From: a virus
Length of the DNA: 24,606 nt
IMG/VR virus record: IMGVR_UViG_3300044617_002133
Span: 1 to 24,606 of that record
Reading direction: 5' to 3' (one strand)
This document shows positions 60-20,942 of this stretch, piece by piece. A program made the position numbers and the translations under genes. The notes below the pieces were generated by a model. It did no database searches, was not told the origin of the DNA, and saw only the letters and a list, made by a program, of their open reading frames with translations. Position 1 is the first letter of the stretch, and each line of letters begins with the position of its first letter.

Positions 60-74
60 CCGCTTTGCGCGAGC

Positions 75-2187: not shown

Positions 2188-3695
2188 CGGGCCGGGCGTA
2201 CGACGTCACCATGGGTCTGCTCAGCACCGTGTCTGGTTGGTTCCGCGGTCGCAGCGTCGAGGCGCGCGCGGTCGGCGGTGCCGTGGCTCGCGCTGACCTC
2301 GAGGGCGGGCTGCTCGCACCAGGTGCTGCAGGTCGAGGCCCGCCGGCCCGTGGCACCCGCGAGCTCATCGCCGCGTACCGAGAGCAGCCGTGGCTCAGGG
2401 CCGTCACCAACCGCATCGCCCGCGGCGTCGCTTCGATGCGCTGGGGCGTTTACGTGCGCGCGAGCGAGCCGGTGAAGCCAGCCGGGCGCATGGCCCCGAC
2501 GTGGCGTTGGGGCGTCGACCGCGCGGTGCGTGACTCCGCGCTGCAGTCACCCAACCGCGAGGGACGAGCGAAGCGCATGGCTCAGCTGCAGCGCGCGGGA
2601 GTGCTGCGCGAGGTGGCGGACCACCCGATGCTCGAGCTGCTGCAGCGGCCGAACCCGATGATGACGGGCCATGCGGCGTTGCAGGTGACGCAGGTGTGGT
2701 TGGACATCAAGGGCGAGGCCTTCTGGCTGGTCAGCTACGCGCCCGACGGCACGCCAAACGGTCTCTGGCCGGTGCCGCCGCACTGGGTGCAGGCTGTGCC
2801 GAACACAGGGGCGCCGTACTTCGTCGTCAGCACCGGCTCTGTGCAGATGAAGCTCGACCCGAGCGCCGTCATCTGGCTTCGCGACATCGACCCCAGCAAC
2901 CCGTATGGCCGTGGCGCTGGCGTTGCGGAGTCGCTCGGCGACGAGCTCGAGACCGACGAGTACGCGGCGAAGTACCTCAAGGCGTGGTTCTTCAACAACG
3001 CGACGCCCTCGATGCTCGTCTCGTTCGAGACGAACGCGACCACGAAGCAACTCGAAGAGGCGCGCGACAAGTGGGAGCAGTCGCACCGCGGCGTGCACAA
3101 CGCCCACCGCGCACACTTCGCCGCCGGCAAGATGAACGCGGTCAAGCTCGACACGAGCTTCCGCGACCAACAGCTGCTCGAGCTGCGCCGCATGCACCGC
3201 GACACCGTCATTCAGGTGTTCGGCGTTCCGCCTGAGGCAGTGGGCGTCATCGAGAACAGCAACCGGGCCACCATCGACGGCGCCGGGTACATGTACGCCA
3301 TCGGCGTCGAGCACCCGCGCTGCGAGTTCCTCCGCTCCGAGCTCGCGCACCAGCTGCTGCCGAAGTTCAAGGGCGGTGACGCTGCGCTGCTCGAGTGCGA
3401 GCTCAGCACGCCGCAGGACCAGACCCGCCGCCTCGAGGTGATGAAGGCGCAGCCCGCCGGCTTCCTGCTGAACGAGTTCCGCTGCGAGGCCGGGTACGAC
3501 CCGCTGCCCGAGCTCGAGGGCGAATTCGCTGCCGCCATGCCTGGGCAGAACGGCAGTACCGCAAAGCCTGCTGCGCCCCCGCCCGAGGTCGACGACGAGG
3601 AAGAGCCGGAGGCCGAGCCCGCCGAAGCAGAGACGGAAGAACTCTCGGCAGCCCGCATGGACCCTCCCTGGGCGAAGCACCTGCGTCGACTCTGA
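2184..3695 (+). CDS. Portal protein, HK97 type
   Basis: Forms the dodecameric ring at one capsid vertex through which DNA enters and leaves, and nucleates head assembly. The family is recognised from ELIAAYREQPWLRAVTNRIA near the N-terminus, a central DIDPSNPYGRGAGVAESL stretch, the helical EYAAKYLKAWFFNNATPS region and FGVPPEAVGVIENSNRATI, all typical of HK97-like portals. At 503 residues it is somewhat longer than usual because of an acidic Glu/Pro tail (about 455-490). GTG 2184 overlaps the terminase stop as GTGA; ATG 2211 would give the common MGLL beginning and is a real alternative, as neither has a clear ribosome site. The gene is followed by the diverged copy of the repeated intergenic motif and then the protease gene. 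Confidence 0.93.
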   Translation: MTGRAYDVTMGLLSTVSGWFRGRSVEARAVGGAVARADLEGGLLAPGAAGRGPPARGTRELIAAYREQPWLRAVTNRIARGVASMRWGVYVRASEPVKPAGRMAPTWRWGVDRAVRDSALQSPNREGRAKRMAQLQRAGVLREVADHPMLELLQRPNPMMTGHAALQVTQVWLDIKGEAFWLVSYAPDGTPNGLWPVPPHWVQAVPNTGAPYFVVSTGSVQMKLDPSAVIWLRDIDPSNPYGRGAGVAESLGDELETDEYAAKYLKAWFFNNATPSMLVSFETNATTKQLEEARDKWEQSHRGVHNAHRAHFAAGKMNAVKLDTSFRDQQLLELRRMHRDTVIQVFGVPPEAVGVIENSNRATIDGAGYMYAIGVEHPRCEFLRSELAHQLLPKFKGGDAALLECELSTPQDQTRRLEVMKAQPAGFLLNEFRCEAGYDPLPELEGEFAAAMPGQNGSTAKPAAPPPEVDDEEEPEAEPAEAETEELSAARMDPPWAKHLRRL

Positions 3696-3732
3696 CGGCG
3701 CGTCACATCGTGTGAGGCCTCTCGCGTCTTCT
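3693..3732 (+). promoter_or_regulatory. Diverged copy (D) of the repeated ~40-bp intergenic motif
   Basis: The stretch begins at the portal stop codon and shares TGACGGC, the core ATCGTGTG and a terminal TTCT with the copy at 10301 at identical spacing, with 24 of 40 positions equal. It lacks the GGAAT part of the core found in the other three copies. It ends seven bases before the protease ATG and leaves no room for a separate ribosome site. It may be a weak or specialised promoter for the capsid block. Confidence 0.4.
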
Positions 3733-3739
3733 GTGTCTC

Positions 3740-4537
3740 ATGAAGACGCCGGTTCGCCGCGAGGCGCCATCTGGAGCAGAGGCCACGGGCGACCGGAAGC
3801 GGCGCTTCGTGCTCAGCGATGAGAGCGTCGACCGCTACAACACCGTCTTCAAGCTCGCCGGCTGGGAGCTCGAGAACTTCTCGCGCAACCCCGTGGTGCT
3901 CTGGTGCCACGACCACCGCTCGCTCCCGCTGGGCAAGGCGTCGGTGAGTAAGAGCGGCGGCGCCCTAGTTGCCGAGGTCGAGTTCTTCGACGACGCGACC
4001 AACCCCGACGCCACCCGCATCATGAAGATGGTGGACGGCGGCGTGATGGGCGTGTCCGTCGGCGCTCGCGTGCTCGAGTCCGAGTACAACCTCGAGCGCG
4101 AGAGCGAAGACGAGTGGGAGAACTGGGTGTCTCCCCCGCTCGACTTCACCCGCGCCGAGCTGCTCGAGATGAGCATCGTCAACGTGCCCGGCAACGCAAA
4201 CGCGCTGCCCATGCGCACGGCTGAGCTCGACGAGCTGCGTCTCATGACGCAGGCCGCGGTGTTCCGCGCGAGCGAGCCGAGAGACTTGAAGGCCCACCCG
4301 GAAGCGAAGGCGCTGCGTGCTGCTGCGCTCGCGAAGCGCTCGGCTGCGGAACCATCCGCGCCCGCCGCTCCGCCTCCCGCGCCGGGCGAAGAAACCGTCG
4401 AGCTGCCCGAAGGACTCGACGCCGAAGGTCTCGCGAAGTTGGTGCGCGACACCGTCACCGAAAGCATCGCGGACCGGTTGAAGGCAGCCGCGCTCCGTCA
4501 ACGTGGGGAACTCGAAGTCGAGGGAGCAAAATCGTGA
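3740..4537 (+). CDS. HK97-family prohead protease
   Basis: Maturation protease that is packaged in the prohead and removes the scaffold-like N-terminus of the capsid protein. Residues 20-165 form the protease domain: RRFVLSDESVDRYNTVFKLAGW, then NPVVLWCHDH with the likely catalytic histidine at 57 or 59, and MGVSVGA with the likely nucleophile S106, as in the herpesvirus-like serine proteases of this family. LLEMSIVNVPGNANA (about 141-155) is the conserved segment after the active site. A Pro/Ala linker and a charged helix (about 220-265) may act as a scaffold tail. No ribosome site precedes ATG 3740. The stop overlaps the capsid start in GTGA, so the two are coupled. Confidence 0.92.
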   Translation: MKTPVRREAPSGAEATGDRKRRFVLSDESVDRYNTVFKLAGWELENFSRNPVVLWCHDHRSLPLGKASVSKSGGALVAEVEFFDDATNPDATRIMKMVDGGVMGVSVGARVLESEYNLERESEDEWENWVSPPLDFTRAELLEMSIVNVPGNANALPMRTAELDELRLMTQAAVFRASEPRDLKAHPEAKALRAAALAKRSAAEPSAPAAPPPAPGEETVELPEGLDAEGLAKLVRDTVTESIADRLKAAALRQRGELEVEGAKS

Positions 4538-5823: not shown

Positions 5824-5884
5824 CGGGCGCCTGAGCCGACACCGTCACTCGCAGTCCAAGACTCGCAGCCAGGAGAACTGAACC

Positions 5885-6334
5885 ATGTCCGCACAGACCA
5901 TCACGGGGGTCGGCGCCGAAGTCGCGACCCGCATCGGCATCGACCCCGCCGCGCGCACGGCGGGCACCGCCAACGGCACCGGCTTCGACCGCATCGGCTT
6001 CAACAGCTGCGTTCTCATCGGCCAGTCGGGCGCTGAGACGGGCTCGCCCACCGCGCGCTCGGTCGACTTCAAGATTCAGCACAGCGACGTGGTCGGCTCG
6101 GGCTATGCCGACTACACGCCGTCAATCCCGGCTCCGGGTGCGACCGGCGCGCTGGCGCAAATCGCCGCGGTCACCACGATGAAGAAGCGCAGCATCGACC
6201 TGAAGACGGCGAAGCAGTTCATCCGCGTGGTGGCCACCACGGCCTTCACGGGCGGCACCTCGCCGACGCTCCTCAGCTCCGCGGTGGTGGTGCTCGGCGG
6301 TGCCGACGTCCTGCCCATCGCCGACGACACGTAA
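5885..6334 (+). CDS. Probable capsid-associated (decoration-like) protein
   Basis: Unknown by name, but it has the look of a small beta-rich virion protein that many HK97-type phages encode just after the capsid gene: a central FKIQHSDVVGSGYADY segment, then KQFIRVVATTAFTGG and a hydrophobic final strand SSAVVVLGG. The 149-residue size and position suggest a head decoration or stabilising protein; that function is inferred. The ATG has the strong ribosome site AGGAG about nine bases upstream, consistent with high expression. It sits 61 bases after the capsid gene and is followed by a 113-base gap with a terminator-like hairpin. Confidence 0.65.
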   Translation: MSAQTITGVGAEVATRIGIDPAARTAGTANGTGFDRIGFNSCVLIGQSGAETGSPTARSVDFKIQHSDVVGSGYADYTPSIPAPGATGALAQIAAVTTMKKRSIDLKTAKQFIRVVATTAFTGGTSPTLLSSAVVVLGGADVLPIADDT

Positions 6335-6400
6335 GACCCAAGGTCCACGGACGAGCCGGGCTCACCGGGGACGTGGACGACCTGCAGCACGGCGCAGAAC

Positions 6401-6432
6401 CCGGGGTGTGAGCCGCCCCGGCCTTTCCTTTT
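6401..6432 (+). terminator. Terminator-like hairpin after the capsid block
   Basis: CCGGGG at 6401-6406 pairs perfectly with CCCCGG at 6416-6421 around a nine-base loop, and the T-rich run CCTTTCCTTTT follows directly. It lies in the 113-base gap between the decoration-like gene and the next head gene. It could cut down read-through from the highly expressed capsid genes. The T-run is interrupted, so termination is probably partial. Confidence 0.5.
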
Positions 6433-6447
6433 GCCCCGAGAGAACAC

Positions 6448-6726: not shown

Positions 6727-6731
6727 TCGAA

Positions 6732-6763
6732 GCACCGCGCCCACTCAGGGCGCGTCGAGGTGC
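6732..6763 (+). other. Strong hairpin overlapping the connector ribosome site
   Basis: CGCGCCC (6736-6742) pairs with GGGCGCG (6748-6754) around ACTCA. An outer GCAC (6732-6735) pairs with GTGC (6760-6763) across a small internal loop. The outer arm uses the GAGGTG ribosome site of the connector gene starting at 6769. The structure could therefore tune its translation or act as an RNA-processing site. No T-run follows, so it is not a classic terminator. Confidence 0.45.
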
Positions 6764-6768
6764 CCACA

Positions 6769-9093: not shown

Positions 9094-9100
9094 GGAACAC

Positions 9101-9337
9101 ATGCCCACTGCAAAACAGCAGGCCACCACCCTCGCGGTCGCGCTCTACCAAGAGGGCCCCGCCACCTTCCGCGAGAAGTTGGCCGAGGCCATCAACACGC
9201 TGAACGAGCTCGCCGCTCTGCACGACCGGGCGACGGCCGACACCACGGTCACCACCGTTCAGACGCAGACCTTCACCGACCAGCGCGATGCGTTGGTCGT
9301 CACCCGCTTTCAGGCGTGGCTCGCCGCGAATCCCTGA
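9101..9337 (+). CDS. Small protein of unknown function, neck region
   Basis: A 78-residue protein starting at ATG 9101 with the ribosome site GAGGAAC just upstream, seven bases after the fibre-like gene. Residues 1-45 are predicted helical (ALYQEGPATFREKLAEAINTLNELAALHD). The second half is Thr-rich (TTVTTVQTQTF) and ends in FQAWLAANP. There is no signal peptide, membrane segment or metal motif. The position next to the fibre-like gene suggests an adaptor, assembly factor or structural partner of that protein, but this is inference. Start, ribosome site and spacing make a real gene likely. Confidence 0.65.
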   Translation: MPTAKQQATTLAVALYQEGPATFREKLAEAINTLNELAALHDRATADTTVTTVQTQTFTDQRDALVVTRFQAWLAANP

Positions 9338-9340
9338 GCC

Positions 9341-10303
9341 ATGGCTGACCCGCGCTCCGTCATCGTTGTCGACTCCACCGGGGCACCGCTCACCAGCGGC
9401 ACGCCCGGGGTGCAGGCGTTCAACCGAGCGACGGGCGCCAGCCGCACCGCACCGGCGATTGCGCACCTGCCGGCGGTGCCGGGCACGTGGCGAATCCTGC
9501 CCACCGACGACGACGAGACCGTGGGCACGGTGGTGCTGGTCGACTTCGGGGCGGGCAACCTTCCCCGCTTCTGGTCGTTTCAGGTCCACAAGGCCGACAA
9601 CTCGAACCAGTTCTGGGCGGTGCCCGTCGTTGGCGCTGATGGCTCCGCCTGGGCCGGGGCGGCACCAACGTTCGGCGGCTACTCGGGCAGCCCCACCCCG
9701 TCGCTGACGGCCATGCCGGGCGCCGCGACCGCGCTCTACACGGCGGCGCCGAGCTCGGGCGACATCACCACGGGCGCCGAGGGCCGCATCGACGGGCCCG
9801 CCGGCTCGAGCCAGCCGTTCTGGAACGTCTCGACACTGCCGGCGAGCACCTCGAGCCCGTGGGAAGCGCCCTCGCCCGGGCCCGTGAAGAACCCCGCGCT
9901 CGACGTGGTGAACTTCCTCGACACGAAGGCGGCGGGCAGTCTCACGCTCGCGAAGGGCACCAACCTCTTCGTGGGCCCTGAGCGCAGCTTCCCGCGCACG
10001 GCGGCGAGCTGCGTGTTCGCGCTCAACACGGGCGGGCCCGGCCCTGAGCCGTACCTCGGCGGGCGCCGCACTGCGCTCTTCCGCCCGACGGTCCAGCTCC
10101 TGGTGCGCGCCGGCGCCGGAGACCTCGAGGCGGGCGAGGCCATCGCTCGAGCAGTCTTCGAGTGGCTCCACCAGTACGTGCTCATCGGGTACACCAGCCT
10201 CTACGTGCGCGACTCGGCGCCGGTGTACCTGGGCGAGTTCGACCAGCGGCACCGCTGGGCCATCAACGTCGAGTGCCAGTACCGGTCAAGCCTCGCGCCC
10301 TGA
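9341..10303 (+). CDS. Tail terminator with an extra N-terminal beta domain
   Basis: The C-terminal 135 residues (about 184-320) match a tail terminator or minor tail protein: PALDVVNFLDTKAAGSLTLA, NLFVGPERSFPRTAASCVFAL, GRRTALFRPTVQLLVRAG, EAIARAVFEWLHQY and INVECQYRSSLAP. This type caps the tail tube and fixes its length. Residues 1 to about 112 form a separate beta domain (SVIVVDSTGAPLTSGTPGVQ ... GTWRILPTDDDE ... VDFGAGNLPRFWSFQV ... GSAWAG) like the Ig-like adornments of phage structural proteins. A Ser/Pro/Ala-rich linker joins them. Terminators are normally 120-160 residues, so this is about twice the usual size. The stop codon is the first part of repeated motif copy A. Confidence 0.72.
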   Translation: MADPRSVIVVDSTGAPLTSGTPGVQAFNRATGASRTAPAIAHLPAVPGTWRILPTDDDETVGTVVLVDFGAGNLPRFWSFQVHKADNSNQFWAVPVVGADGSAWAGAAPTFGGYSGSPTPSLTAMPGAATALYTAAPSSGDITTGAEGRIDGPAGSSQPFWNVSTLPASTSSPWEAPSPGPVKNPALDVVNFLDTKAAGSLTLAKGTNLFVGPERSFPRTAASCVFALNTGGPGPEPYLGGRRTALFRPTVQLLVRAGAGDLEAGEAIARAVFEWLHQYVLIGYTSLYVRDSAPVYLGEFDQRHRWAINVECQYRSSLAP

Positions 10304-10340
10304 CGGCCCTCGGAATCGTGTGCGTGGTGGGGGGCATTCT
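10301..10340 (+). promoter_or_regulatory. Repeated intergenic motif, copy A (candidate promoter)
   Basis: It begins at the terminator-protein stop and contains the 13-base core CGGAATCGTGTGC (10311-10323), GTG three bases later, then GGCA-N-TCT ending at 10340. The same elements recur at the same spacing at 17775 and 20896. It stands 34 bases before the first tail-tube ATG, which has its own GAGGGA ribosome site, so it is placed like a promoter for the tail operon. Confidence 0.6.
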
Positions 10341-10374
10341 CCTCGTCGCTCGCTGACCTCCTGAGGGAACGCCC

Positions 10375-10782
10375 ATGGCCACTGCTGCACACCTCCGAAA
10401 GCTGTACGCGAAGAGCACCAGCGTCGCGCCTGTCGCCGGCGACGAAATCGACGGCTCGAAGGACTTCAGCTTCACCCGCTCGCGCGATGTCCTCGACACC
10501 ACCGACTTCAAGGACGGTGACCAGCGCACGAAGCTGCTCGGGCTGAAGGACGGCTCCGGCAACATCAGCGGCGACTGGGAGAACGGCGACGCCGTGCAGG
10601 CGCTGCTGCTCAGCTCGCACGACTCCGGCGCCCTCGTCTACATCACCGACCTGCCCGACGGCACCAACGGCTTCACCTTCCCGTGCCTCGTCGAGTCCAT
10701 CGAGACGGGCGGCGCCGTCGGTGACCTCGTCTCGCGCACCTTCAACCTCACGCAGGCCGGCGCGGCCATCGTCCGCCCGTAA
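10375..10782 (+). CDS. Tail tube protein (short paralogue)
   Basis: Probable major tail (tube) protein of 135 residues, the subunit that stacks into the hollow tail. FSFTRSRDVLDTTDFKDGDQ followed by KLLGLKDGSGNISGDW (about 31-68) is the hallmark of one tail-tube family, and the C-terminal strands (TFPCLVESIETGGAVGDLVS, RTFNLTQAG) fit the same beta-sandwich. A clear GAGGGA ribosome site lies upstream of ATG 10375. It is first in the block that follows motif copy A. The next gene contains the same domain, so tandem duplication is likely. Which of the two forms most of the tube cannot be decided here. Confidence 0.8.
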   Translation: MATAAHLRKLYAKSTSVAPVAGDEIDGSKDFSFTRSRDVLDTTDFKDGDQRTKLLGLKDGSGNISGDWENGDAVQALLLSSHDSGALVYITDLPDGTNGFTFPCLVESIETGGAVGDLVSRTFNLTQAGAAIVRP

Positions 10783-10791
10783 GGAGCGCCC

Positions 10792-11472: not shown

Positions 11473-11474
11473 CC

Positions 11475-11852
11475 ATGAATCGAACCGAAGCCCGCTCATT
11501 CCTGCTCGGTGGCTCGCGCCGCTTCCGCAGCGAGAAGGTGTCCGTGCTGCTGCCCGGTGATGCTGCGCCGCTCGAGCTCGAGGTCCGTCAGCCCACCTAC
11601 GCCGATCAGCAGCGCATCATCCGGGCCGGCAACGTGCAGGCGGGCAAGGAGTCGCAGGTCGACGGGCTCGCCATCGGTTTCGAGGCGACGTTGCTGTGCA
11701 CGTACGTCGACGGGGTGCGGCTCTTCGACGAGGCCGACCGCAAGGCCCTGCTCGAGATGGCCGGGTGCAACGAGCTGGTGCAGGCCGTGAGCGCCGTCGT
11801 CATGAAGCTCATCGCGGCGACGCCCACCGAGAAGGACGCCGAAAAAAACTGA
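11475..11852 (+). CDS. Tail assembly chaperone, short form (G-like)
   Basis: Counterpart of lambda gpG, a 125-residue chaperone that binds the tape measure and tube subunits during tail assembly. It lies between tube and tape-measure genes, the fixed place for this function. Typical features are the beta-rich start (RSEKVSVLLPGDAAPLELEV), the PTYADQQRII helix and a C-terminal helix NELVQAVSAVVMKLIAATP. ATG 11475 is two bases after the upstream stop; the open frame to GTG 11460 would overlap the tube gene. The last codons GAA AAA AAC lead into TGA and form a classic -1 slippery heptamer. Confidence 0.85.
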   Translation: MNRTEARSFLLGGSRRFRSEKVSVLLPGDAAPLELEVRQPTYADQQRIIRAGNVQAGKESQVDGLAIGFEATLLCTYVDGVRLFDEADRKALLEMAGCNELVQAVSAVVMKLIAATPTEKDAEKN

Positions 11853-12028
11853 AGGGGGACGGGCTCCGGCTCACCCTCTTCGAGGTGAGCGAGCGAGTTG
11901 GCCGTCCCGTGCACGAGTTGGAAGAGCAGCTGACGGTCGATGAGCTGCTCGAGTACCGCGCGTTCTGGAAGCTGAAGGCCGACGCGGAGAAAAAGGCGGC
12001 CGATGCGGCTCGCCATCGCAAGGGGTGA
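11475..12028 (+). CDS. Tail assembly chaperone, frameshifted long form (GT-like)
   Basis: Fusion made when ribosomes slip back one base at A-AAA-AAC (11843-11849), continue at CTG 11849-11851 and read to TGA 12026-12028, giving about 184 residues. The added 59-residue T domain (LTLFEVSERVGRPVHELEEQ, then TVDELLEYRAFWKLKADAEK) has the helical pattern usual for gpT-type domains, which recruit tail-tube subunits. It has no good start of its own, since the frame before the slip site lacks a plausible ribosome site and is not protein-like. It ends three bases before the tape-measure GTG. The product requires frameshifting and is inferred from sequence. Confidence 0.82.
11843..11908 (+). other. Programmed -1 frameshift signal
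   Basis: The slippery heptamer A AAA AAC (11843-11849, in frame) is followed after six bases by GGGACGG (11856-11862), which pairs perfectly with CCGTCCC (11902-11908). The enclosed 39 bases contain an inner hairpin CTCAC/GTGAG (11870-11889). Upstream, AAGGA at 11832-11836 resembles an internal ribosome-site stimulator. Heptamer, spacer and stem are in the arrangement known to promote -1 slippage. Confidence 0.82.
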
Positions 12029-12031
12029 ACC

Positions 12032-14191
12032 GTGTCGCTTCAGGTCGGCAGTCTCTACGCGAGCCTCACCGCCTCCACCTCGGGGTGGAGCAAGGCGATG
12101 GACGGCGCGCTGAAGACTGCCGAGAAGTTCGCGAAGGACATGAAGAAGCTGTCGAGCGAAATCGCCTCGACCGGGGCGGCCATGACGGCGGTCGGCGCGG
12201 CCGCGGTCGCCCTGGCGCAGTCGGTCGACGGGCCGACGAAGACGGCGATGGACGGGCTGCACAAGTCGACGCAGCTGCTGGCGGTGCAGGTCGCCGACAT
12301 GCTGCTGCCGGCCATTCGCGCGCTCTCCGAGATGATGAAGACGGCGGCGGGTGTCGTTGCCGGGCTCAGCCCACACACGAAAGAGATGATCTCCACCTTC
12401 GCCGTCATCGCGGTGCAGGTGGCTGCCGCGGCAAAGGCCTTCAGCATGCTCTCGGGTCTCGCGGGGAGCGTGTTGGGGTTGGCTCGTGCGCTCCTCGCAG
12501 TCTCCGCGCCCCTGGCGGGCATTGCGCTCGCGGTCGGTGCCGTCGTGGCGGTGGTGATTCTGCTGCACCGGGCGTGGCGGAAGAACTGGGGCGGAATTCA
12601 GGAAGCCACGGCGGAGGTGCTCGAGTGGCTCCGTAAGGGCTTCAGCCAGCTCGCCGACTTCATGGGCGGCGTGTGGAACTTCATGGTCGACGGCGCGAAG
12701 GGCTTCGTTGATGGGCTGCTCGCCGTCGGTTCGGCCATCGAGCGCATCACTGGGAAGAAGCTCGGCATCGACGGCATGCGCGAGGGCTTCGCCGGACTGT
12801 GGAAGGACCTGAAGAGCGGCAGCTTCTTCAGCGGCGCGTTCGAGTTCGGCAAGTCGCTGGGCGCGCAGGTCGGCGGCGCCATGAGCGAAGAGTTGAAGCT
12901 CATCATGAACGAGCTCGGCATCGACAAGCTCTTCAGCCAGGGGAAGGTCATCGGGCTCGGGCGGGGCATGGGCGGCTCCAGCATGCCGAGTAACCCGGCG
13001 GGTCGGGGCTCGGAGATGAACGGGCGCGGTGGTGCAGCGTTCGGTCCCGAGGTCGGCAACATCAGCACCAGCGCGGCGGCGGACAACCGCTTCTTCCGCG
13101 AGATGACGATGATGGCCGATCAAGCCGAGGCGACGAACAACCGCCTCGCCAAGACCTTCGGCAGGGCCGAGGCGCATGCAGTCACGATGGAGAATGCAGC
13201 GAAGCGCGCGGCCGAGCACGCGAAGAAGCACGCCGCGGTGGTCGCGACGCTGAAGACGATGGGCAACACCCTCGTGCAGAACACCGGCGCGCTTGGCGCC
13301 GCCATCAGCAACATCGCCAACGCGGCCTCGCAGGGTGGGCCGTGGGCAGCGCTGCTCGCCGCGGTGATGGAAATCTTCAACCGCATGCAGTCGTTCCAGC
13401 GCCTGCTGCGCATCTTCGAGCAGATGTTCGTGCGGCTCGGCGAGATGCTAGCCCCGCTGCTCGACGGCATCTTCAAGCTCATCGGCGACGCAGTGGCGTG
13501 GTCGATTGAGGGACTGAAGCCGCTCTTCGATGCGCTGCAGCCGCTGTTCGATGCGCTGCTTCCGCTGCTCACCAAGATGCTCTCGGGCATCGGGCAGACG
13601 AACGCTCTCTTCAGCGGACTCGCGCCCGTCATCGAGGTGTTCGCGACCGTCATCGGTGCGGTGTTCGAGGCGTTGAAGCCGCTCATGGACATTCTCGGGC
13701 TGCCGATGAAACTCGCCATCAGCGGCATCTTGGCGTTCGTGCTCGCGCTGAATGAAATTGCCGCTGCTCTCGGCGACGCGAAGGCGGCCGACGAAGCAAA
13801 GCGGCTGCGCGGACTCATCGACAAGCTCTGGGCGCCCGACGTCGACGCGCGCAATGCCGCCGATGCGGCCGCTGCCGGGGCCATGTGGGACCTCGACCGC
13901 AGCGCAGGGGACGCAAGTGAGTCCCTGTCGAAGATGGCTGAGTCGCTCACCAATGTGCCGAGCGGCTACAAGATGGCGCTCGCCCGCTTCAACGCTGACA
14001 CCGGCATGACCGGTACGCCCTTCGCCGGTGGCGGTGGTGGCGGCACGACCATCAATGGCGACGTGTACGTGACCAGCTCGGCCGAGACGGTCGAGAACCT
14101 CGCCGAAGACGCAAAGAAGGAAGCGGCTCGCGAGCGAGGCCAGCAGCGCGGCACCGGGGCGCCACCTCGAGGCCGGGGCGGGAGGGACTGA
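12032..14191 (+). CDS. Tail tape measure protein
   Basis: Sets tail length and passes through the tail lumen at infection. The 719-residue protein starts VSLQVGSLYASLTASTSGWS, has an amphipathic helical N-terminal part, a long hydrophobic stretch (about 121-178, ending VGAVVAVVILLHRAW) and a Gly/Met/Ser-rich linker (about 310-345). Further helices follow (KRAAEHAKKHAAVVATLKTM, FVRLGEMLAPLLDGIFKLIG, MKLAISGILAFVLALNEIAA) before a Gly-rich tail with TTINGDVYVTSS. At roughly 0.15 nm per residue the tail would be near 110 nm; this is an estimate from the known scaling. No peptidase or lysozyme motif is apparent. GTG 12032 is three bases after the T-domain stop. Confidence 0.9.
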   Translation: MSLQVGSLYASLTASTSGWSKAMDGALKTAEKFAKDMKKLSSEIASTGAAMTAVGAAAVALAQSVDGPTKTAMDGLHKSTQLLAVQVADMLLPAIRALSEMMKTAAGVVAGLSPHTKEMISTFAVIAVQVAAAAKAFSMLSGLAGSVLGLARALLAVSAPLAGIALAVGAVVAVVILLHRAWRKNWGGIQEATAEVLEWLRKGFSQLADFMGGVWNFMVDGAKGFVDGLLAVGSAIERITGKKLGIDGMREGFAGLWKDLKSGSFFSGAFEFGKSLGAQVGGAMSEELKLIMNELGIDKLFSQGKVIGLGRGMGGSSMPSNPAGRGSEMNGRGGAAFGPEVGNISTSAAADNRFFREMTMMADQAEATNNRLAKTFGRAEAHAVTMENAAKRAAEHAKKHAAVVATLKTMGNTLVQNTGALGAAISNIANAASQGGPWAALLAAVMEIFNRMQSFQRLLRIFEQMFVRLGEMLAPLLDGIFKLIGDAVAWSIEGLKPLFDALQPLFDALLPLLTKMLSGIGQTNALFSGLAPVIEVFATVIGAVFEALKPLMDILGLPMKLAISGILAFVLALNEIAAALGDAKAADEAKRLRGLIDKLWAPDVDARNAADAAAAGAMWDLDRSAGDASESLSKMAESLTNVPSGYKMALARFNADTGMTGTPFAGGGGGGTTINGDVYVTSSAETVENLAEDAKKEAARERGQQRGTGAPPRGRGGRD

Positions 14192-14194
14192 GCC

Positions 14195-15103
14195 ATGCCC
14201 GTTCTGGCCATTGCCGGCGTCGAGCTGCCCGTCGTGCCTGAGACGCTGCGCCGCTCGTTCGAGACCGTGGGCCAGCGCTCGCGTAACGCGCGGGGGCACA
14301 CCGTGCTCGAGCGCCGGCGCGCGAAAAGCATCATCGAGTTCGAGCTCAGCCCCTGCCCCTTCGAGGAAGCGATGCTCTACCGCTCGCTCATCCTCGGCGA
14401 GGGCGAGTTCTGGAACACGCTCACCAGCGCATACGGGGCGAAGGGTCTGCAGCTCACCGGCACCGGGGCATGGAGCGGGAGCGGCGGCGGCAACCCGCAC
14501 AACGGCAACGGCACTTTCGTGCTCACCACGGGGCAGACGATGGTGGTGCCTGGTCGCTTCTACGACCAGAGCGCGGTGAGCGCGACCACGGGAGGCATCA
14601 CCGGGGCGACGCTCATCGGGTGGCGCTTCGACGGCGCCGCGTACCGCCTGGCGGGCTTCAGCTGGCGCTCGGGCGACTTGGTGGTGGCCACGCGCCGCGA
14701 GAAGCTGGGCTCACTCGGGAGCTCGGGCGCGGCGCAGGCGTACACCGGCACGGAGACGCTCGCGGTGTCGGCCGGCAACATGACCCTCACTGCACCCGGC
14801 GCTGGCGGGCCTTGGCGGTGGAGCAACATCACCGTCTACCCGTGGTTCTGCGACTCGACGCTCGTCGACCTGCTCCTCGATGGGCAGGCGGCCAGCACGT
14901 ACACCCTGCCGCAGCTTCCTCGCGTGTACGTGACGGGCGATGCGGTGCTGCCGCTCGACCAGCAGAACGCCACGGGCGGGCTCAACCAGGCGTCGCTCAT
15001 CTGCACCGGCGAGGTGGACGAACTGACCTCGGTGTCTCTCGCGCGCGGGGGCACGTTCCGCCACACCGACATGCGCCTGAGCGGCTCGCTCATCGAGGTG
15101 TGA
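14195..15103 (+). CDS. Distal tail (Dit-position) protein, unrecognised sequence
   Basis: A 302-residue, beta-rich, Gly-rich protein between the tape measure and the large tail-tip gene, where distal tail (Dit) proteins lie. The N-terminus has a substrate-neutral RRSFETVGQRSRNARGHTVL segment and FELSPCPFEEAMLYRSLILG, followed by an insert with GSGGGNPHNGNGTFVLTTGQ. The C-terminus (YTLPQLPRVYVTGDAVLP, FRHTDMRLSGSLIEV) is all strand-like. No enzyme motif is visible. ATG 14195 stands three bases after the tape-measure stop. A hub or Dit role is inferred from gene order; a minor tail protein is the alternative. Confidence 0.6.
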   Translation: MPVLAIAGVELPVVPETLRRSFETVGQRSRNARGHTVLERRRAKSIIEFELSPCPFEEAMLYRSLILGEGEFWNTLTSAYGAKGLQLTGTGAWSGSGGGNPHNGNGTFVLTTGQTMVVPGRFYDQSAVSATTGGITGATLIGWRFDGAAYRLAGFSWRSGDLVVATRREKLGSLGSSGAAQAYTGTETLAVSAGNMTLTAPGAGGPWRWSNITVYPWFCDSTLVDLLLDGQAASTYTLPQLPRVYVTGDAVLPLDQQNATGGLNQASLICTGEVDELTSVSLARGGTFRHTDMRLSGSLIEV

Positions 15104-15104
15104 C

Positions 15105-17777
15105 GTGAGGACCAAGTCAGCTCAGGCCACGGCCGTTCTCGCCAACCCGAGCCACAGCGCGCGGGCGCTGGTGACGGTGTACTCGAGCGCCGGAGTGGCG
15201 GGCCCGACGTGGGGCGCCTCCGCGCCCAACGGACAGGTCGAGCCGGTGATGCACGTCGAGGTGAGCCACGACCTCGACTCGTTCCGCACCGCCCGAGTGC
15301 GCCTCCAGCGCCAGCAGGGCCGGTACTCGCTCGCTCCGCTGGTGAGCACCAGCAACCCCCTTTTCGGCGCTGAGGCGCCCGTGGCCGTCGGGCGGCGGCT
15401 CCTCATCGAGGTCGAGCTGCAGCTCGCCGACATCACCGTGACGCCCTCGGGGCTGCGCGAGACGGTGTTCGACGGCTTCATCGACGAAGTGGCATGGCCT
15501 GACGACGAGATGGAACTCGTCTGCACCGACAAGTTCGCCCGGCTGCGGGACACGTGGATTGAGACCGAGCGCGTCTATGGGTACGCGCAGGGCGTCAATG
15601 CGACAAAGGGCTGCCTCGTTTGGCGGTACGACATGGCGGCCCTCGCGCTCAACGAGCTCGTCGTGCCCTCCGAGAAGAAGTTCAACGGGCGGTTCTACCG
15701 GGTGAGCGCAGTCAGCGGCCCGCAGTCGGCGGTCGAGCCGGTGTGGCCGACGGGCGGCGGCTCCACCGTGGTGAGCGGCGGCGTCACCTTCACGGAGTCG
15801 GGGGCGGTGAGCGACAGCACCGGCACCGCCATCGAGACCATCATCTCGCAGGTGCTGGCCGACAACGGACTGGGCAGCTTCGTCACGCTGCAGACGCCCG
15901 TCTCGCCCGGGTGGGCCATCAAGCCCTACATTCAGCAGCGCGAGTCCGTGGCCGACGCGCTGCAGGCGATGGTCGACCAGCTCGGCTGGTGGCTCCGCTT
16001 CGAGTGGTCGAGCGGGCTCGGGCGGTACGAGCTTCACCTGGTGCAGCCCGACCGCGCCTCGAGCACCACCCACAAGACGCTCGCCCAGGACGAAGAGGTT
16101 GAGTGCACCGAGGTGGCGGTCGACGTCTGGAGCATCCGCAACGTGGTGCGCGTCATCTACGGAGACAGCATCAGCAAGGACGCCGCTGGGCGGCCGACGC
16201 GCATCGTGCGCGAGGTGAGCGACGCGGCCAGCATCACGAAGTACGGGCGGCGCTTCATGGAGGTGGCCGAGGCCGACGGCTCGAACATCGACACCTCGAC
16301 CGAGGCCGACCGACTGGCAAACGCTATCCTTTCCGACCTCAAAGAGCCCACCGTCGGGGTGGCGGTCGGCTTCCCTGTTGACCCGTACCTCGAGCTCGGG
16401 GACCGCATCGCCATTCCGGCAGATCAACTCCGATGGACCTCGACGCAGACGCTGGCGGTCGAGTCCCTCACCCACAGCATCGACGGAACCAGCGCCCGCA
16501 CGAGCGTGCGGCTGCGGGGGGCGCCCGCCGCCCGTCACACCGCATGGCTCGAGATGGACGCACGCACCCGAGAAGGGGACGTGCACCAGGTTTCTCTGCT
16601 CAACGCCAACGCGACCACGCTCTCGAGCGCCGCAGTGGTAGGTGGCCAGCGCTTCACCATCGCCGACACCCGTGGGAAAGGCGCGTGGAGCCAGATGCAC
16701 GAGCTCCACGTGAGCGAGACGGCGGCCTTCACGCCCTCGACGTCGACCCTGCGCGCTGCCGGTGAGCAGAGCTCGTTCGACGTGCCCTCACTGGTGCCGG
16801 GGAAGACGTACTACTGGCAGGTCGTCCCCTACACGCTCAACGCTGACCGCCTCGTGCGCGGCTCGCCGTCGGCAGAGCGGAGTTTCGTCGCGGGCCGGGC
16901 CTCTGCCGGTCACCTCGACCAACTGGCGCTGCTCGGGGTTCCCAACCCGCAGTTCGCCAGCGCGCTCGACCAACCGTCAGCCGAAGTCTATGTGACGCCG
17001 CCCGACCACTGGAGCATTGTGGCAGGCACGTGGGGCGCCACGAGTGACGCCTATGCCGCCCTCGCCGGCACGTCGCAGTACCGCATGATTCGGCTGCGGC
17101 AGACGGCGACCTCAGCGCAACTGCAGAGCAGCGTCTTCCCCATCGAGCGCGGCGCAGTCGCCGCCAAACTGCTCGCGGTGGTGTCCCCGAACGGCACGTA
17201 TTCGGCCGGTCGAGACCTGCACTTCGTCATCGACTTCTTCAGCGACCTCGGGAACACAAGCACGGGCAGCGTCGACCTCGTTTGTCCTGGCAACATTGTG
17301 GGCGCGGGCTCGTGGGCGGAATACTCCAGCGACCTCGCTGTGCCTGCCGGGTCGAACTTCGCGCGGGTGAAGCTCTACAAGGAGGCCACCTCCTCGGCGT
17401 ACGGCTTCGATGTGGCGACGGTCGCGCTTCGGGCGCTGGGCCCGCTCGCTCAGCCGGCCTTCACCGGCGTGACGTTCAGCACCGGGTGGCAGAACTACAC
17501 GGCCGGGTTCGGCGGGCCGTGGGCCAACGTCCAGTACCTGAAGGACTCGATGGGGTTCGTTCATCTTCACGGGCTCTGTTACCGCGTCAGCGGCGTCAAC
17601 ACGGTGATGTTCACGCTCCCTGTCGGGTTTCGTCCCGCCGGTCAGCAAATCTTCGCGGTCGACTCAGCAGGAGGTCACGCTCGCGTCGACGTCAACACAA
17701 ACGGCGACACGAGCATCACCGGCGGCACGCCGGGAACGTGGGTCAGCGTGAGCGGCATCACCTTCCGAGCGGCCTGA
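15105..17777 (+). CDS. Large tail-tip protein (hub with FN3-like and receptor-binding ends)
   Basis: An 890-residue protein with several parts. Residues about 48-150 and 240-475 resemble the hub fold of tail-associated proteins (VMHVEVSHDLDSFRTARVRL, VFDGFIDEVAWPDDEMELVC, QRESVADALQAMVDQLGWWL, VDPYLELGDRIAIPADQLRW). Residues about 528-595 look like a fibronectin type III domain (WSQMHELHVSETAAF, YYWQVVPYTLNADRLVRGSP). The last 108 residues (WQNYTAGFGGPWANVQYLKD, GFVHLHGLCYR, FTLPVGFRP, GTWVSVSGITF) match a terminal domain shared by many fibre tips. It therefore probably joins the tail to the receptor-binding end. GTG 15105 follows the upstream stop at once. Its stop begins motif copy B. Confidence 0.82.
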   Translation: MRTKSAQATAVLANPSHSARALVTVYSSAGVAGPTWGASAPNGQVEPVMHVEVSHDLDSFRTARVRLQRQQGRYSLAPLVSTSNPLFGAEAPVAVGRRLLIEVELQLADITVTPSGLRETVFDGFIDEVAWPDDEMELVCTDKFARLRDTWIETERVYGYAQGVNATKGCLVWRYDMAALALNELVVPSEKKFNGRFYRVSAVSGPQSAVEPVWPTGGGSTVVSGGVTFTESGAVSDSTGTAIETIISQVLADNGLGSFVTLQTPVSPGWAIKPYIQQRESVADALQAMVDQLGWWLRFEWSSGLGRYELHLVQPDRASSTTHKTLAQDEEVECTEVAVDVWSIRNVVRVIYGDSISKDAAGRPTRIVREVSDAASITKYGRRFMEVAEADGSNIDTSTEADRLANAILSDLKEPTVGVAVGFPVDPYLELGDRIAIPADQLRWTSTQTLAVESLTHSIDGTSARTSVRLRGAPAARHTAWLEMDARTREGDVHQVSLLNANATTLSSAAVVGGQRFTIADTRGKGAWSQMHELHVSETAAFTPSTSTLRAAGEQSSFDVPSLVPGKTYYWQVVPYTLNADRLVRGSPSAERSFVAGRASAGHLDQLALLGVPNPQFASALDQPSAEVYVTPPDHWSIVAGTWGATSDAYAALAGTSQYRMIRLRQTATSAQLQSSVFPIERGAVAAKLLAVVSPNGTYSAGRDLHFVIDFFSDLGNTSTGSVDLVCPGNIVGAGSWAEYSSDLAVPAGSNFARVKLYKEATSSAYGFDVATVALRALGPLAQPAFTGVTFSTGWQNYTAGFGGPWANVQYLKDSMGFVHLHGLCYRVSGVNTVMFTLPVGFRPAGQQIFAVDSAGGHARVDVNTNGDTSITGGTPGTWVSVSGITFRAA

Positions 17778-17815
17778 GCGGCACCCGGAATCGTGTGCTG
17801 AGTGCGGGGCAGTCT
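17775..17815 (+). promoter_or_regulatory. Repeated intergenic motif, copy B (candidate promoter)
   Basis: This copy shares 36 of 41 bases with copy C and the full 13-base core (17787-17799) with copies A and C. It starts at the TGA of the tail-tip gene and ends 37 bases before ATG 17853, which has a CGGAG ribosome site about 12 bases upstream. The 75-base gap it occupies is one of the longest in the tail region. It is placed to drive the appendage genes. Confidence 0.62.
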
Positions 17816-17852
17816 CACCGGTGAACGTTGCAGCTTCCCGGAGTGCTGACCC

Positions 17853-18260
17853 ATGGCCCTGAAGTTCCCCGTCGCCTTCCGCAACACCCGCGCCGACACC
17901 GTGCCGACTCGCGCGGGCAACGGCGCCCTCCTGCGCATCTACAGCGGTACGCGCCCAGCGAATGCAGACACGGCCCCCGCGGGCACGCTGCTGGCCGAGC
18001 TGACGTGCGGCACCCCCTTCGCCCCGGCTGCCTCGAGCGGCGCCTTCGCCGCCAACTCCATCACGCAGGACTCGAGCGCGAACGCCACTGGCACGGCCAC
18101 CTGGTTCCGCTTGGTCAACTCGGCGGGCACCAACACCGTGATGGACGGCGACGTGACGGCCACGGGTGGAGGTGGCGACCTCGAGCTCGTCACCACCTCC
18201 ATCGTCGCCACCCAGCCGGTGCAAGTGACGGCCTTCAGCTTCACCGAGGGGGGCGCGTAA
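17853..18260 (+). CDS. Conserved-looking virion protein, unknown function
   Basis: A 135-residue beta-rich protein. The segments RAGNGALLRIYSGTRPANAD and GTATWFRLVNSAGTNTVMDG, then GDLELVTTSIVATQPVQVTAF, follow a pattern seen in small phage proteins next to tail-fibre genes, for which no role is established. It begins at ATG 17853 downstream of motif copy B and ends at TAA directly before the GTG of the next gene. The abundance of Ala, Thr, Gly and Asn with few charges fits a virion surface protein. No catalytic or membrane motif is visible. Confidence 0.68.
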   Translation: MALKFPVAFRNTRADTVPTRAGNGALLRIYSGTRPANADTAPAGTLLAELTCGTPFAPAASSGAFAANSITQDSSANATGTATWFRLVNSAGTNTVMDGDVTATGGGGDLELVTTSIVATQPVQVTAFSFTEGGA

Positions 18261-19826
18261 GTGGCCGACAACGTCACTGCCAACCCGGGCGCCGGCGGTG
18301 CGACGCTCGCCACCGACGACATCGGTGGCGTGCAGTACCCGCGATCGAAACTCGTCATCGGCGCCGATGGCGTCAACGACGGCGACGTGTCGGCCGCCAA
18401 CCCGCTGCCGGTGCGCGTGCAGGGCGTGGCGACGCGCACGAATGGGCCGCTGGCCAACGACAACGGGCTGGTGATGCGCCAGGCGCCCCTCGACGTGTGG
18501 AGCGTCGGCTTCGCGCGCGTGGGCAGCGGGCTGCTTGAGCCCGAGATGACTCAGCGCAAGCTCGGAACGGGCGTCACGGTCTCGCAGTCGACTTCAAATC
18601 TGGTGGTCGCCGCGGGCACCACCGTCAACGCAGAGTTTCTCGCGCGCAGCGTGGCGAGCTTCCGGGGCGCCTTTCTGCAGCGCCACCGCGCCATCCTCAG
18701 CCAGCGCATCGCGAACAACAACTTCGCGGTGATGATGGCCGACCGCATCGGCGAAGGCCTCGCGTGCACCATCAACAGCGCGACCTCCATCACCGTCACC
18801 GCGCCTGGGCACGGCTTCACGTCGCAGAACGTCGGGCAGTCGATGTTCGTCGGCGCCATCGTTGGGGCTGCAGGCGTACCCGGGCGCTACGCCATCGCCT
18901 CGGTGCCGACGGTGGACACCATCACCTTCACGGTGGCTGGCTGGCCGGCGAGCGGCTCGTGCACGGTCGACCTCTTCGGGTGGAACTACTTCCGCACGCT
19001 GTACAACGGCACCACCGCGACGAACGCCCTCGTTGACGCCCAACGCCGCGGGTGGGCGTCGGGCGACACAACGGCCACCATCAACACCACGGCGAGCCCC
19101 GGCCATGTGATGCAGACCGCCGTCGACGGGCGGAACGCGTACTGGAGCGATTCGCTGGTGGCCTCGAGCGCCACGCCCAACTTCGCCACGCGCGCGCACC
19201 GCATCGAGAACCTGCCGGACGACGACGTCGAGCTCTTCCTCTACGTCTGGAGCTTCAACGGCGCGGTGGCACCCGCTTCGTCGACGTCGTGGACCATCGG
19301 CTTCGTTGCCGTCGAGGACGTCACCAACGTGGCGACGTACATCGCCGGCTTCCGGCCAACAGGCAACGCCGCGCCGCTTCCGGTGGCGTTTCCCACCACG
19401 CCGACGGTAACAGTGGGCACGCTGCCGGCGACACCTGCGGGCGCCAACACCATCGGCGGCGTGCGCCTGATCTCCGATGCAGCCCAGGGCGCAAGCACAA
19501 CACACCACCTCATCGCTGCAGCCGGCACCAACGCAACGTCGGTCAAGACGTCAGCCGGCAACATCAACGCCATCGTGCTCAGCAACGCATCGGCGGCCGC
19601 TCGCTACTTCAAGCTGTGCAACCTCGCAGCTGCGCCGACCCCCGGCACAAGCACGCCTGTGATGACGGTGCTTGTTCCGGCGGGACAGGCCGTGACGGTG
19701 AACTGCGGACCCTTCGGCATTCGGCTCGCGACCGGCATCGCGTACCACCTCACGACGGGAATCGCTGTTGCGGACACGGGCGCTCTCGCCGCGGCCGACA
19801 TGTCCGTCGCCATCTTCTACACGTGA
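18261..19826 (+). CDS. Probable tail fibre or appendage protein
   Basis: A 521-residue, beta-rich and weakly charged protein following the last with no gap (TAA then GTG 18261). The N-terminus (TDDIGGVQYPRSKLVIGADG, VNDGDVSAANPLPVRVQG) is a recurring start in virion appendage proteins. The middle (FRGAFLQRHRAILSQRIANN, TVTAPGHGFTSQNVGQSMFV, WNYFRTLYNGT) looks like a folded beta domain. The C-terminal 110 residues (NASAAARYFKLCNLAAAP, TPVMTVLVPAGQAV, FGIRLATGIAYHLTTGIA, MSVAIFYT) resemble a terminal domain common in phage virion proteins. A fibre, spike or capsid fibre are all possible. Function is inferred from composition and place. Confidence 0.6.
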   Translation: MADNVTANPGAGGATLATDDIGGVQYPRSKLVIGADGVNDGDVSAANPLPVRVQGVATRTNGPLANDNGLVMRQAPLDVWSVGFARVGSGLLEPEMTQRKLGTGVTVSQSTSNLVVAAGTTVNAEFLARSVASFRGAFLQRHRAILSQRIANNNFAVMMADRIGEGLACTINSATSITVTAPGHGFTSQNVGQSMFVGAIVGAAGVPGRYAIASVPTVDTITFTVAGWPASGSCTVDLFGWNYFRTLYNGTTATNALVDAQRRGWASGDTTATINTTASPGHVMQTAVDGRNAYWSDSLVASSATPNFATRAHRIENLPDDDVELFLYVWSFNGAVAPASSTSWTIGFVAVEDVTNVATYIAGFRPTGNAAPLPVAFPTTPTVTVGTLPATPAGANTIGGVRLISDAAQGASTTHHLIAAAGTNATSVKTSAGNINAIVLSNASAAARYFKLCNLAAAPTPGTSTPVMTVLVPAGQAVTVNCGPFGIRLATGIAYHLTTGIAVADTGALAAADMSVAIFYT

Positions 19827-19833
19827 GGCCTCC

Positions 19834-20004
19834 ATGGTGACGATCAAGCCCAGCACCTCGTTGCACGCCGAAGTCACCGCGCACGAATCAGGGCCAGGTG
19901 TTGTCACCGCTCGAGAGACGCGAGACGGCGTGGCGTGGCTCGTTGTCGAGTTCCCCGGCTACGGCACGGTGATTCTGCCCGCCGCCGACTTCGACGAGGT
20001 GTGA
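19834..20004 (+). CDS. Small protein of unknown function (56 residues)
   Basis: It starts at ATG 19834, seven bases after the fibre gene, and ends at TGA one base before the next GTG start. The longer open frame upstream overlaps the fibre gene and is not used. The sequence alternates polar and hydrophobic residues (HAEVTAHESGPGVVTARET, DGVAWLVVEFPGYGTVILP), which suggests a small all-beta domain. The end is acidic (ADFDEV). No membrane or metal motif is seen. A minor virion or fibre-associated role would fit its neighbours, but nothing in the sequence shows it. Confidence 0.6.
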   Translation: MVTIKPSTSLHAEVTAHESGPGVVTARETRDGVAWLVVEFPGYGTVILPAADFDEV

Positions 20005-20005
20005 C

Positions 20006-20563
20006 GTGTCAGCGGTGCTGACGTACTGGCTCAAGCTCGAGCTGTTCGGCACGGGCGGCGGCGGCGGAGGCACCACCGGCACCGTCAACGCCACCGCCCC
20101 CACGCCCACGCTTGCCGCGTCGGGCACCCCTGTCGTCACCGGAGCAGCGATCGCGACCGGGCCCGCGCCGAGCATCTCGAGCTCGGGCACCCCTGTCGTC
20201 ACTGGTTCGGCGGCCCCGACGGCCCCGGTCTCGAGCATCTCGAGCTCGGGCAGCCCGGTCGTCACAGGACAGACGGCGGTCATCACGCCCCTGCCCGCGC
20301 TCTCGGCACTCGGCAGCCCGGCAGTGGCTGGCGTGGTGCTTGTCGCGTCACCGGCGGCATCGCTGGTCGCGTCAGGGGCCCCTGTCGTGTCGGGCGTGGT
20401 GGTGGTCACCACGTCGGTGCCGACGCTGCAGATGCTGGAGCCGCCCGTCGTTCGGTACGCGGCACCCGGCGAGCTGGTGACTGTCGCCCTCGCGACCACT
20501 CCGAGCGTCAGCGTGGGAGCCGCTCCCGTCGTCGCCACCACATCGAGCCCTGCCACTGTTTAG
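20006..20563 (+). CDS. Repeat protein with five 21-residue units
   Basis: A 185-residue protein of unusual make-up. Residues 1-16 are an amphipathic head (SAVLTYWLKLELFGTG), 17-30 a Gly hinge with six glycines in a row, and 32-136 five exact-length 21-residue repeats with the centre SGTPVVTG, drifting to LGSPAVAG and SGAPVVSG. A degenerate remainder follows to the end. Almost no charged residues occur after residue 12. Such a periodic Ser/Thr/Val/Pro protein is probably an elongated virion surface element, perhaps a short shaft or a flexible linker anchored by its N-terminus. A membrane-associated role for the head cannot be excluded. I do not recognise a family. GTG 20006 stands one base after the upstream stop. 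Confidence 0.65.
   Translation: MSAVLTYWLKLELFGTGGGGGGTTGTVNATAPTPTLAASGTPVVTGAAIATGPAPSISSSGTPVVTGSAAPTAPVSSISSSGSPVVTGQTAVITPLPALSALGSPAVAGVVLVASPAASLVASGAPVVSGVVVVTTSVPTLQMLEPPVVRYAAPGELVTVALATTPSVSVGAAPVVATTSSPATV
20099..20413 (+). repeat. Five tandem 63-bp repeats within a coding region
   Basis: The units correspond to residues 32-52, 53-73, 74-94, 95-115 and 116-136 of the protein starting at 20006. Units 2 and 3 are closest (ISSSGTPVVTG and ISSSGSPVVTG, with CATCTCGAGCTCGGGCA shared in the DNA), and later units are more diverged. All keep the 63-base period without indels, so the number of units could change by recombination without breaking the frame. Confidence 0.85.
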
Positions 20564-20592
20564 GTGGCCTCACCCGCCGTCGGAGCCACACC

Positions 20593-20898
20593 ATGAACGT
20601 CTTCACCATCAAGCAGGGCGACACGCACCGCCGGCTGCAGCTGACTCTCTCCTCGCTCACCACCACCGGGGCCAGCGGCGTGAGCTTCCGGGGCAAACAG
20701 CGGGACGGAGCGCTGAAGTTCACCCGCGCGGGAGTCATCGACAGCTCGAGCCAGGTGAGCTGCCAGTTTCAGGCGAGCGACATCAACACGCCCGGCACCT
20801 TCGACGTCGAGGCGACGCTCACCTACCCGGGCAGCGAAGAGGAGACGGTGCCGACCGAAGGGTACGTGACGATGGTGGTGCTGCCCCGGCTGGCCTGA
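20593..20898 (+). CDS. BppU-like N-terminal domain protein (baseplate or fibre adaptor)
   Basis: A 101-residue beta domain. It begins FTIKQGDTHRRLQLTLSS, continues GASGVSFRGKQRDGALKF and ends TFDVEATLTYPGSEEETVP, then TEGYVTMVVLP. This 'kqGDt..l...L', 'G...y.ae...ty.dG....P..gy..i.V' order is that of the immunoglobulin-like domain at the N-terminus of lactococcal-phage upper baseplate proteins (BppU) and many stand-alone phage proteins. It probably plugs an appendage into the tail tip. ATG 20593 has CGGAG about eight bases upstream. The stop starts motif copy C. Confidence 0.7.
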   Translation: MNVFTIKQGDTHRRLQLTLSSLTTTGASGVSFRGKQRDGALKFTRAGVIDSSSQVSCQFQASDINTPGTFDVEATLTYPGSEEETVPTEGYVTMVVLPRLA

Positions 20899-20936
20899 GC
20901 GGCGCCCGGAATCGTGTGCAGGGTGCGCGGCACTCT
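20896..20936 (+). promoter_or_regulatory. Repeated intergenic motif, copy C (candidate promoter of the lysis block)
   Basis: The 13-base core lies at 20908-20920, with GTG and GGCA-N-TCT at the same distances as in copies A and B. It begins at the stop of the BppU-like gene and ends six bases before ATG 20943. No ribosome site fits between, so a transcript starting here would be nearly leaderless or would use the motif itself for initiation. It marks the boundary between appendage and lysis genes. Confidence 0.6.
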
Positions 20937-20942
20937 TCGAGC

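Follow-up and report, generated by a model that had tools for sequence, protein, structure and literature searches.

A repeated intergenic motif with the layout of a late-gene promoter, mostly leaderless, in a group of uncultured phages

Introduction

Phage phi13 is described as having a late promoter, P23, whose start site is preceded by four direct repeats, and the position just upstream of terS is that of known late transcriptional regulators (PMC13123087). A different arrangement is found in the T4 middle promoters, which rely on sigma appropriation by MotA/AsiA and have an activator box in place of the -35 element (PMC7403470). In high-GC bacteria, leaderless genes carry a TANNNT hexamer some 12 bp ahead of the start codon (PMC3160421). 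Here we analyse a motif repeated in the intergenic gaps of a whole IMG/VR record (24,606 bp, 68.5% G+C), hereafter the window, whose genes run in the order terminase, portal, protease, HK97-type capsid, connectors, tail tube, tape measure and tail-tip. A preliminary description had put the motif forward as a candidate late promoter, a proposal strengthened here by its presence in the same gaps of relatives, by a -10-like hexamer at a fixed distance and by a promoter's distance to the start codons.

Results

A motif repeated in gaps of the window

The 13-base core CGGAATCGTGTGC occurs exactly three times in the window (10311, 17786 and 20907, all on the + strand), so that the repeat is real and had been aligned correctly; on recount, copies B and C indeed share 36 of 41 bases. 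As a thrice-repeated 13-mer also appeared in 44 of 200 order-3 Markov simulations with the window's composition, this repeat alone is weak evidence and independent evidence was therefore sought. A 42-bp matrix was built from ten sites in three genomes (the window and its relatives G1 and G2, see below; 102 kb). Leave-one-out scores of the sites ranged from 24 to 47 bits, the next best place in the 102 kb scored 9.2 bits, and the maximum in 3 Mb of simulated sequence was 16.3 bits. The matrix search, a check suggested in the preliminary description, found the ten sites in the same gaps of the three genomes and none scattered elsewhere. Every strong match fell within a gap, and gaps account for 3.4% of the window. 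Chance does not explain the longer motif or where it is placed.

Strong matches in the window were limited to 10301, 17775, 20896 and the diverged copy at 3693. These four sites, previously said to divide the genome into blocks, were confirmed, and two weak sites before terS (~57) and portal (~2185) had been overlooked. The weak sites were recognised through orthology and spacing rather than by score, as were the weak ones of G1 and G2, and became visible because the relatives G4 and G5 have sites at those gaps. The sites, and the gene heading the last block, are as follows.

52..84, + strand: weak site 1; box TCGAGTGA at 52-59 with the T of TGA at 57; hexamer GAGCGT at 71-76; terS ATG at 84, with the predicted +1 at or beside the ATG; orthologues with equal spacing in G1 and G2
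2180..2211, + strand: weak site 2, TerL/portal junction; box TCGTGTGA at 2180-2187, overlapping the TerL stop; hexamer TACGAC at 2199-2204; portal ATG at 2211; orthologous sites in G1, G2, G4, G5, L034, L052 and L054
3693..3740, + strand: site 3, diverged copy; CGGC at 3696-3699; ATCGTGTGA at 3707-3715; hexamer TCTTCT at 3727-3732; protease ATG at 3740, leaderless layout
10301..10374, + strand: site 4, copy A; CGGC at 10304-10307; core at 10311-10323; hexamer CATTCT at 10335-10340; 34-nt leader with SD-like GAGGG at 10363-10367, then the major tail protein ATG at 10375
17775..17852, + strand: site 5, copy B; CGGC at 17779-17782; core at 17786-17798; hexamer CAGTCT at 17810-17815; 37-nt leader with SD-like CGGAG, then ATG at 17853
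20896..20943, + strand: site 6, copy C; core at 20907-20919; hexamer CACTCT at 20931-20936; ATG at 20943, leaderless layout
20943..21137, + strand: 64-aa gene heading the last gene block; start set by the promoter layout

The layout corrects the start of the gene after the 20896 site to the ATG at 20943; its 64-aa product has a CxxC pair (CPTC) and a hydrophobic C-terminal stretch, and gave no PHROG match. Searching the window against Rfam gave no match.

All four named copies begin at the stop codon of the upstream gene, as had been noted, and this stop codon lies outside the motif proper. It is incidental to it, because a G2 copy sits about 40 bp past the stop and a G4 site stays with the protease gene despite the genes inserted after portal. 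The statement that nearly all other junctions are tight needs a correction: motif-free gaps of 40-180 bp are found at 5824-5884, 6335-6447, 6727-6768 and 23229-23407.

Conservation of the sites in relatives

A search with the capsid protein led to two collinear relatives, L022 (G1; 36,310 bp; capsid 83% identical to that of the window) and L023 (G2; 40,967 bp; 68%). Window, G1 and G2 all carry the motif in the portal/protease gap, before the major tail protein gene and after the gene for an 890-aa tail protein. Record L006 is 93% identical in nucleotide sequence over the tail block, and its copy A differs at weakly conserved positions only. A motif search of IMG/VR with GGAATCGTGTGCNNNGTG gave 17 matches, the full motif being present in L006 only; the G1/G2 consensus, compared with cultured phages by BLAST, reached no E-value better than 0.8, and a search of genome contigs with an MCP alignment found nothing. 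With the portal protein, the genome contigs gave three distant loci and no others.

An alignment of portal proteins added L051 (G4, 35 kb), L053 (G5, 31 kb), L034, L052 and L054, with about 53-54% portal identity. In each lineage the equivalent positions carry a repeated box peculiar to it: GGTGAAAGCCTCG in G4, GTGTGAAAGCCTCG in G5 (the G4/G5 box being given as GGTGAAAGCC), GGCTGAATTC in L034, GTGTGATTCC in L052 and CTGTTGAAT in L054. There are five sites in G4 and five in G5 (before terS, at TerL/portal, before protease, before the tail tube and after the 890-aa tail protein), and three each in L034, L052 and L054. Matrices made for each lineage, in which the sites trained their own matrices, scored the sites against the best other place at 28.5 vs 15.9 (G4), 24.0 vs 10.3 (G5), 30.7 vs 8.1 (L034), 26.8 vs 8.4 (L052) and 35.4 vs 10.0 (L054). 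The non-structural regions of G1, G2, G4 and G5 contained no sites; most of the window's early region lies outside its record. In L051 (~11,550-14,210), about 2.7 kb of unrelated genes stand between portal and protease, and the promoter remains with protease.

The gap after the counterpart tail-appendage gene in G1 has no site. Because this gap is site-free and copy C is closest to copy B (36/41), the extra promoter of the window may have arrived with a rearranged module.

Anatomy of the sites

An ungapped alignment of 35 sites from eight genomes, which are linked by orthology and shared ancestry and hence not independent, and whose records are possibly incomplete, revealed a common layout: a lineage-specific box with TG(A/C), 11 bases, and a hexamer xANNNT. 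The box triplet is TGA at 29 sites and TGC at 6. With the hexamers read at a fixed offset picked by eye and counted afterwards, position 2 is A in 33 of 35 and position 6 is T in 30 of 35. The five sites without the final T are all TerL/portal sites and all begin with T (Fisher p=6.5e-5, for sites that are orthologous and so not independent). C or G occupies the first position at 27 of the 35 sites; such hexamers would be poor -10 boxes by themselves, an argument for an activator. The left part is bipartite in the window's lineage (CGGC, seven bases, ATCGTGTG), and no common -35 element was present across the aligned sites.

At 29 of the 35 sites the hexamer and the start codon are 6-9 nt apart; at the other six, namely the five tail-tube sites and the window site at 17775, the distance is 25-37 nt. 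If the hexamer is taken as a -10 element, 29 transcripts would thus begin at or beside the start codon. Pairing to the 16S rRNA tail was calculated for the 17 nt upstream of the start codons: it averaged -3.4 kcal/mol for the 29 adjacent genes, against -3.5 for random sequence (p=0.91); it was strong for 90 other late genes (mean -6.8 kcal/mol, p=6.5e-20) and strong as well for the six leadered genes (mean -8.9). The two marks of leaderless-gene promoters, a hexamer about 12 bp before the start codon and no Shine-Dalgarno (SD) sequence, were thus found together at 29 of the 35 sites.

Late-promoter reading

One motif, on one strand, precedes several virion/lysis operons, as in a late regulon. 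We consider it very probable that the motif is a late-gene promoter, one per virion/lysis operon, combining a -10 hexamer for the host polymerase with an activator box and yielding mostly leaderless messages; transcription, its late timing, the host polymerase and the activator are all elements that we infer from the layout. The right half, xANNNT, would act as the -10 element of host RNA polymerase, while the left half, GTGTG(A/C) at about -29 to -24, would replace the -35 element; in the window's lineage it would extend to CGGC-N7-ATCGTGTG, from -43, and a phage-encoded activator would most likely bind it. Transcription is predicted to start at or beside the start codon, giving a leaderless mRNA, at four of the six window sites (+1 at 84, 2211, 3740 and 20943, within 1-2 nt), and the remaining two, for the tail-tube message and the 17853 message (+1 at ~10347 and ~17822, with the same tolerance), would have leaders with an SD. 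Against a promoter count the 2 of 35 hexamers that lack the A and the 5 of 35 that lack the T.

A second clade with a different box

Three more distant records (L060, L062 and L063; portal 38-40% identical; 54-61% G+C) carry TTGGAAT, nine bases and xANNNT upstream of both the portal and the protease gene, whose start codons come 5-8 nt later. In L063 further sites precede the tail protein gene, which has an AAGGAG leader, and the tape measure gene, whose ATG is six bases on. The layout of this clade is the same and the box different. By-eye inspection of the upstream regions of L056-L059, L061 and L064-L082 found no obvious repeated box.

A candidate reader of the box

In G1 and G2 the gene immediately before terS encodes a tandem-HTH protein (63% identity between the two), the C-terminal part of which matches Sigma70_r4_2 (7.8e-10) and HTH_23 (3.8e-11). 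In G4 and G5 a homologous HTH (E 2e-10 and 2e-8) forms the C-terminus of an N6/N4 DNA methyltransferase:

L097 (G4) 9335-10414: methyltransferase-HTH fusion with a Cys-rich segment, immediately upstream of terS
G5 (L099+L100) 17950-19131: methyltransferase-HTH fusion with a Cys-rich segment, immediately upstream of terS

L063 has a 75-aa homologue with one HTH (8e-8) just before terS, so that a DNA-binding gene upstream of terS, as in RinA/Ltr systems, is present in G1, G2, G4, G5 and L063; the window begins about 83 bp before terS and the HTH gene region lies outside it. The two-HTH candidate of G1 and G2 goes with a two-part box, and the one-HTH candidate of L063 with a single 7-bp box.

The candidate matches generic HTH families only. 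Its best PHROG was phrog_664 (DNA-binding protein, 3.9e-14), and phrog_836 (late activator, 5e-5) was matched via the HTH. AlphaFold predicted two confident three-helix domains (overall pLDDT 69), and the best Foldseek match was a paired-type bipartite domain, with none at E<=0.001, so only the term tandem HTH is claimed. By its position, this protein or domain can be conjectured to be the activator of the late promoters.

Two other proteins were considered for this role. A RusA-like protein, the sole non-structural family common to G1, G2, G4 and G5, was rejected because its residues look like those of the RusA resolvase, although it gave no Pfam or PHROG match. A LexA-like HTH protein of G1, G2 and G4 was set aside, not being found in G5.

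Alternative readings of the motif

We regard it as unlikely that the promoter is read directly, in the absence of any phage activator, by an alternative sigma factor of the host (of ECF type or another) for which the box would be the -35 element. Copies A-C do contain GGAAT, the basis of an ECF resemblance in the preliminary description, within a two-part motif of fixed spacing. The conserved GGAAC/T -35 element of ECF-type promoters is, however, missing from many orthologous sites in relatives, which read GCATCGTGTGA, GTGTGAAAGCC, GTTGAAT or GGCTGAATTC (also GCAT, GTGTGAAA, TTGAAT or TGAATTC), and the conserved downstream element is xANNNT instead. Moreover, the box lies nearer to the -10 than a usual -35, and it changes fast among related phages, unlike the hexamer, as would be expected of a phage-encoded reader. 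A sigma-54 reading of the motif, with TG at -26/-25 and GCA at -13/-11, was also rejected: position -24 is A at 29 sites and C at 6, never the second G, and the C at -12 varies.

It is distinctly improbable that the sites are operators, similar to stoperators, through which a prophage repressor silences the late operons, the adjacent promoter being incidental. Tyrosine-recombinase-like genes, recognised by sequence inspection in G1, G2 and G4, suggest that these phages are probably temperate, and the single orientation with one site per operon would suit such a role. The fixed spacing to both hexamer and start codon argues instead that promoter function is built in, and no sites lie near early genes.

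The use of the promoters by a phage-encoded RNA polymerase or complete sigma factor is very unlikely, even though short, asymmetric, genome-specific, low-copy motifs on late operons are also seen with known phage sigmas (PMC4331800). Sigma70_r2 had no match in any of five records (window, G1, G2, G4 and G5; possibly incomplete) with positive controls, the sigma-like content of the records being region-4-like HTHs only; the phage polymerase suggested earlier is likewise disfavoured by zero matches to single-subunit polymerase PF00940 in the five records, in a search that had no positive control.

An RNA-level element (processing site, translational control or terminator), suggested by its place between one gene's end and the next gene's start, and as RNA processing already by the preliminary description, is scarcely credible, as RNAalifold found no consensus pair across 26 of the 35 sites, the motif stops at the start codon and the adjacent genes lack an SD.

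Other observations on the genomes

At 11840-11852 of the window, the ORF that precedes the tape measure gene has CGAAAAAAACTGA at its end, followed by an ORF in an overlapping frame; G1 has the same GAAAAAAACTGA. The arrangement resembles the frameshift usual for tail assembly chaperones.

Three independent contigs (the window, L022 and L052) begin at position 1 about 50 bp upstream of the terS promoter, and the other end of G1 (CCCCGGGGTCGAT...CCCTTG) resembles the sequence left of that point in G2. The shared start is probably a cos site, in which case the left end of the window would likely be a physical genome end.

A portal homologue was also seen in a Firmicutes MAG contig (L086, 1-3215), in a 1072-residue open frame in which the similarity ends at residue 262, possibly owing to an intein or other insert.

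Discussion

On the late-promoter reading, transcription starts in uncultured phages would become predictable at nucleotide level from sequence alone. A layout of late-gene control with swappable recognition boxes is suggested in at least two distant phage clades, and the presence of leaderless virion genes beside an SD-led major tail protein gene raises the possibility that leader type may set the ratio of virion proteins. More tentatively, these sites might belong to an undescribed, widespread class of late promoters in which a paired-type tandem-HTH protein, fused in some of the phages to a DNA methyltransferase, replaces the -35 contact of the host polymerase and drives leaderless virion mRNAs, box and reader diverging together while the -10 and its spacing to the start codon stay fixed.

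Phage late-promoter regulons are known, and the combination of a box with a mostly leaderless layout would be a variant of them. Among the closest are the RinA/Ltr systems of Gram-positive temperate phages, with which the present one shares temperate-phage late genes and a candidate DNA-binding protein and promoter upstream of terS (PMC13123087). It differs from them in the number of sites, five or six with one for each operon, in the -10-like box that every site has to itself, and in its mostly leaderless layout; no match of the candidate to the RinA family was found, and the candidate's best PHROG is a generic DNA-binding family. The low-copy, well-conserved intergenic motifs of the phage 7-11/phiEco32 sigma promoters were likewise found by comparing the gaps of one genome (PMC4331800), whereas a complete phage sigma gene was not found in the five records here. 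With high-GC leaderless promoters the sites share the hexamer about 12 bp before the start and the absence of an SD (PMC3160421), but the first base is here usually C/G and not T, a phage box stands upstream, and late operons only are concerned. Finally, the T4 middle promoters also have a box instead of a -35 and a -10 downstream (PMC7403470); their box sequence is unrelated and their gene class different, so that, with architecture alone compared, the present promoters would work like them without being members of that class.
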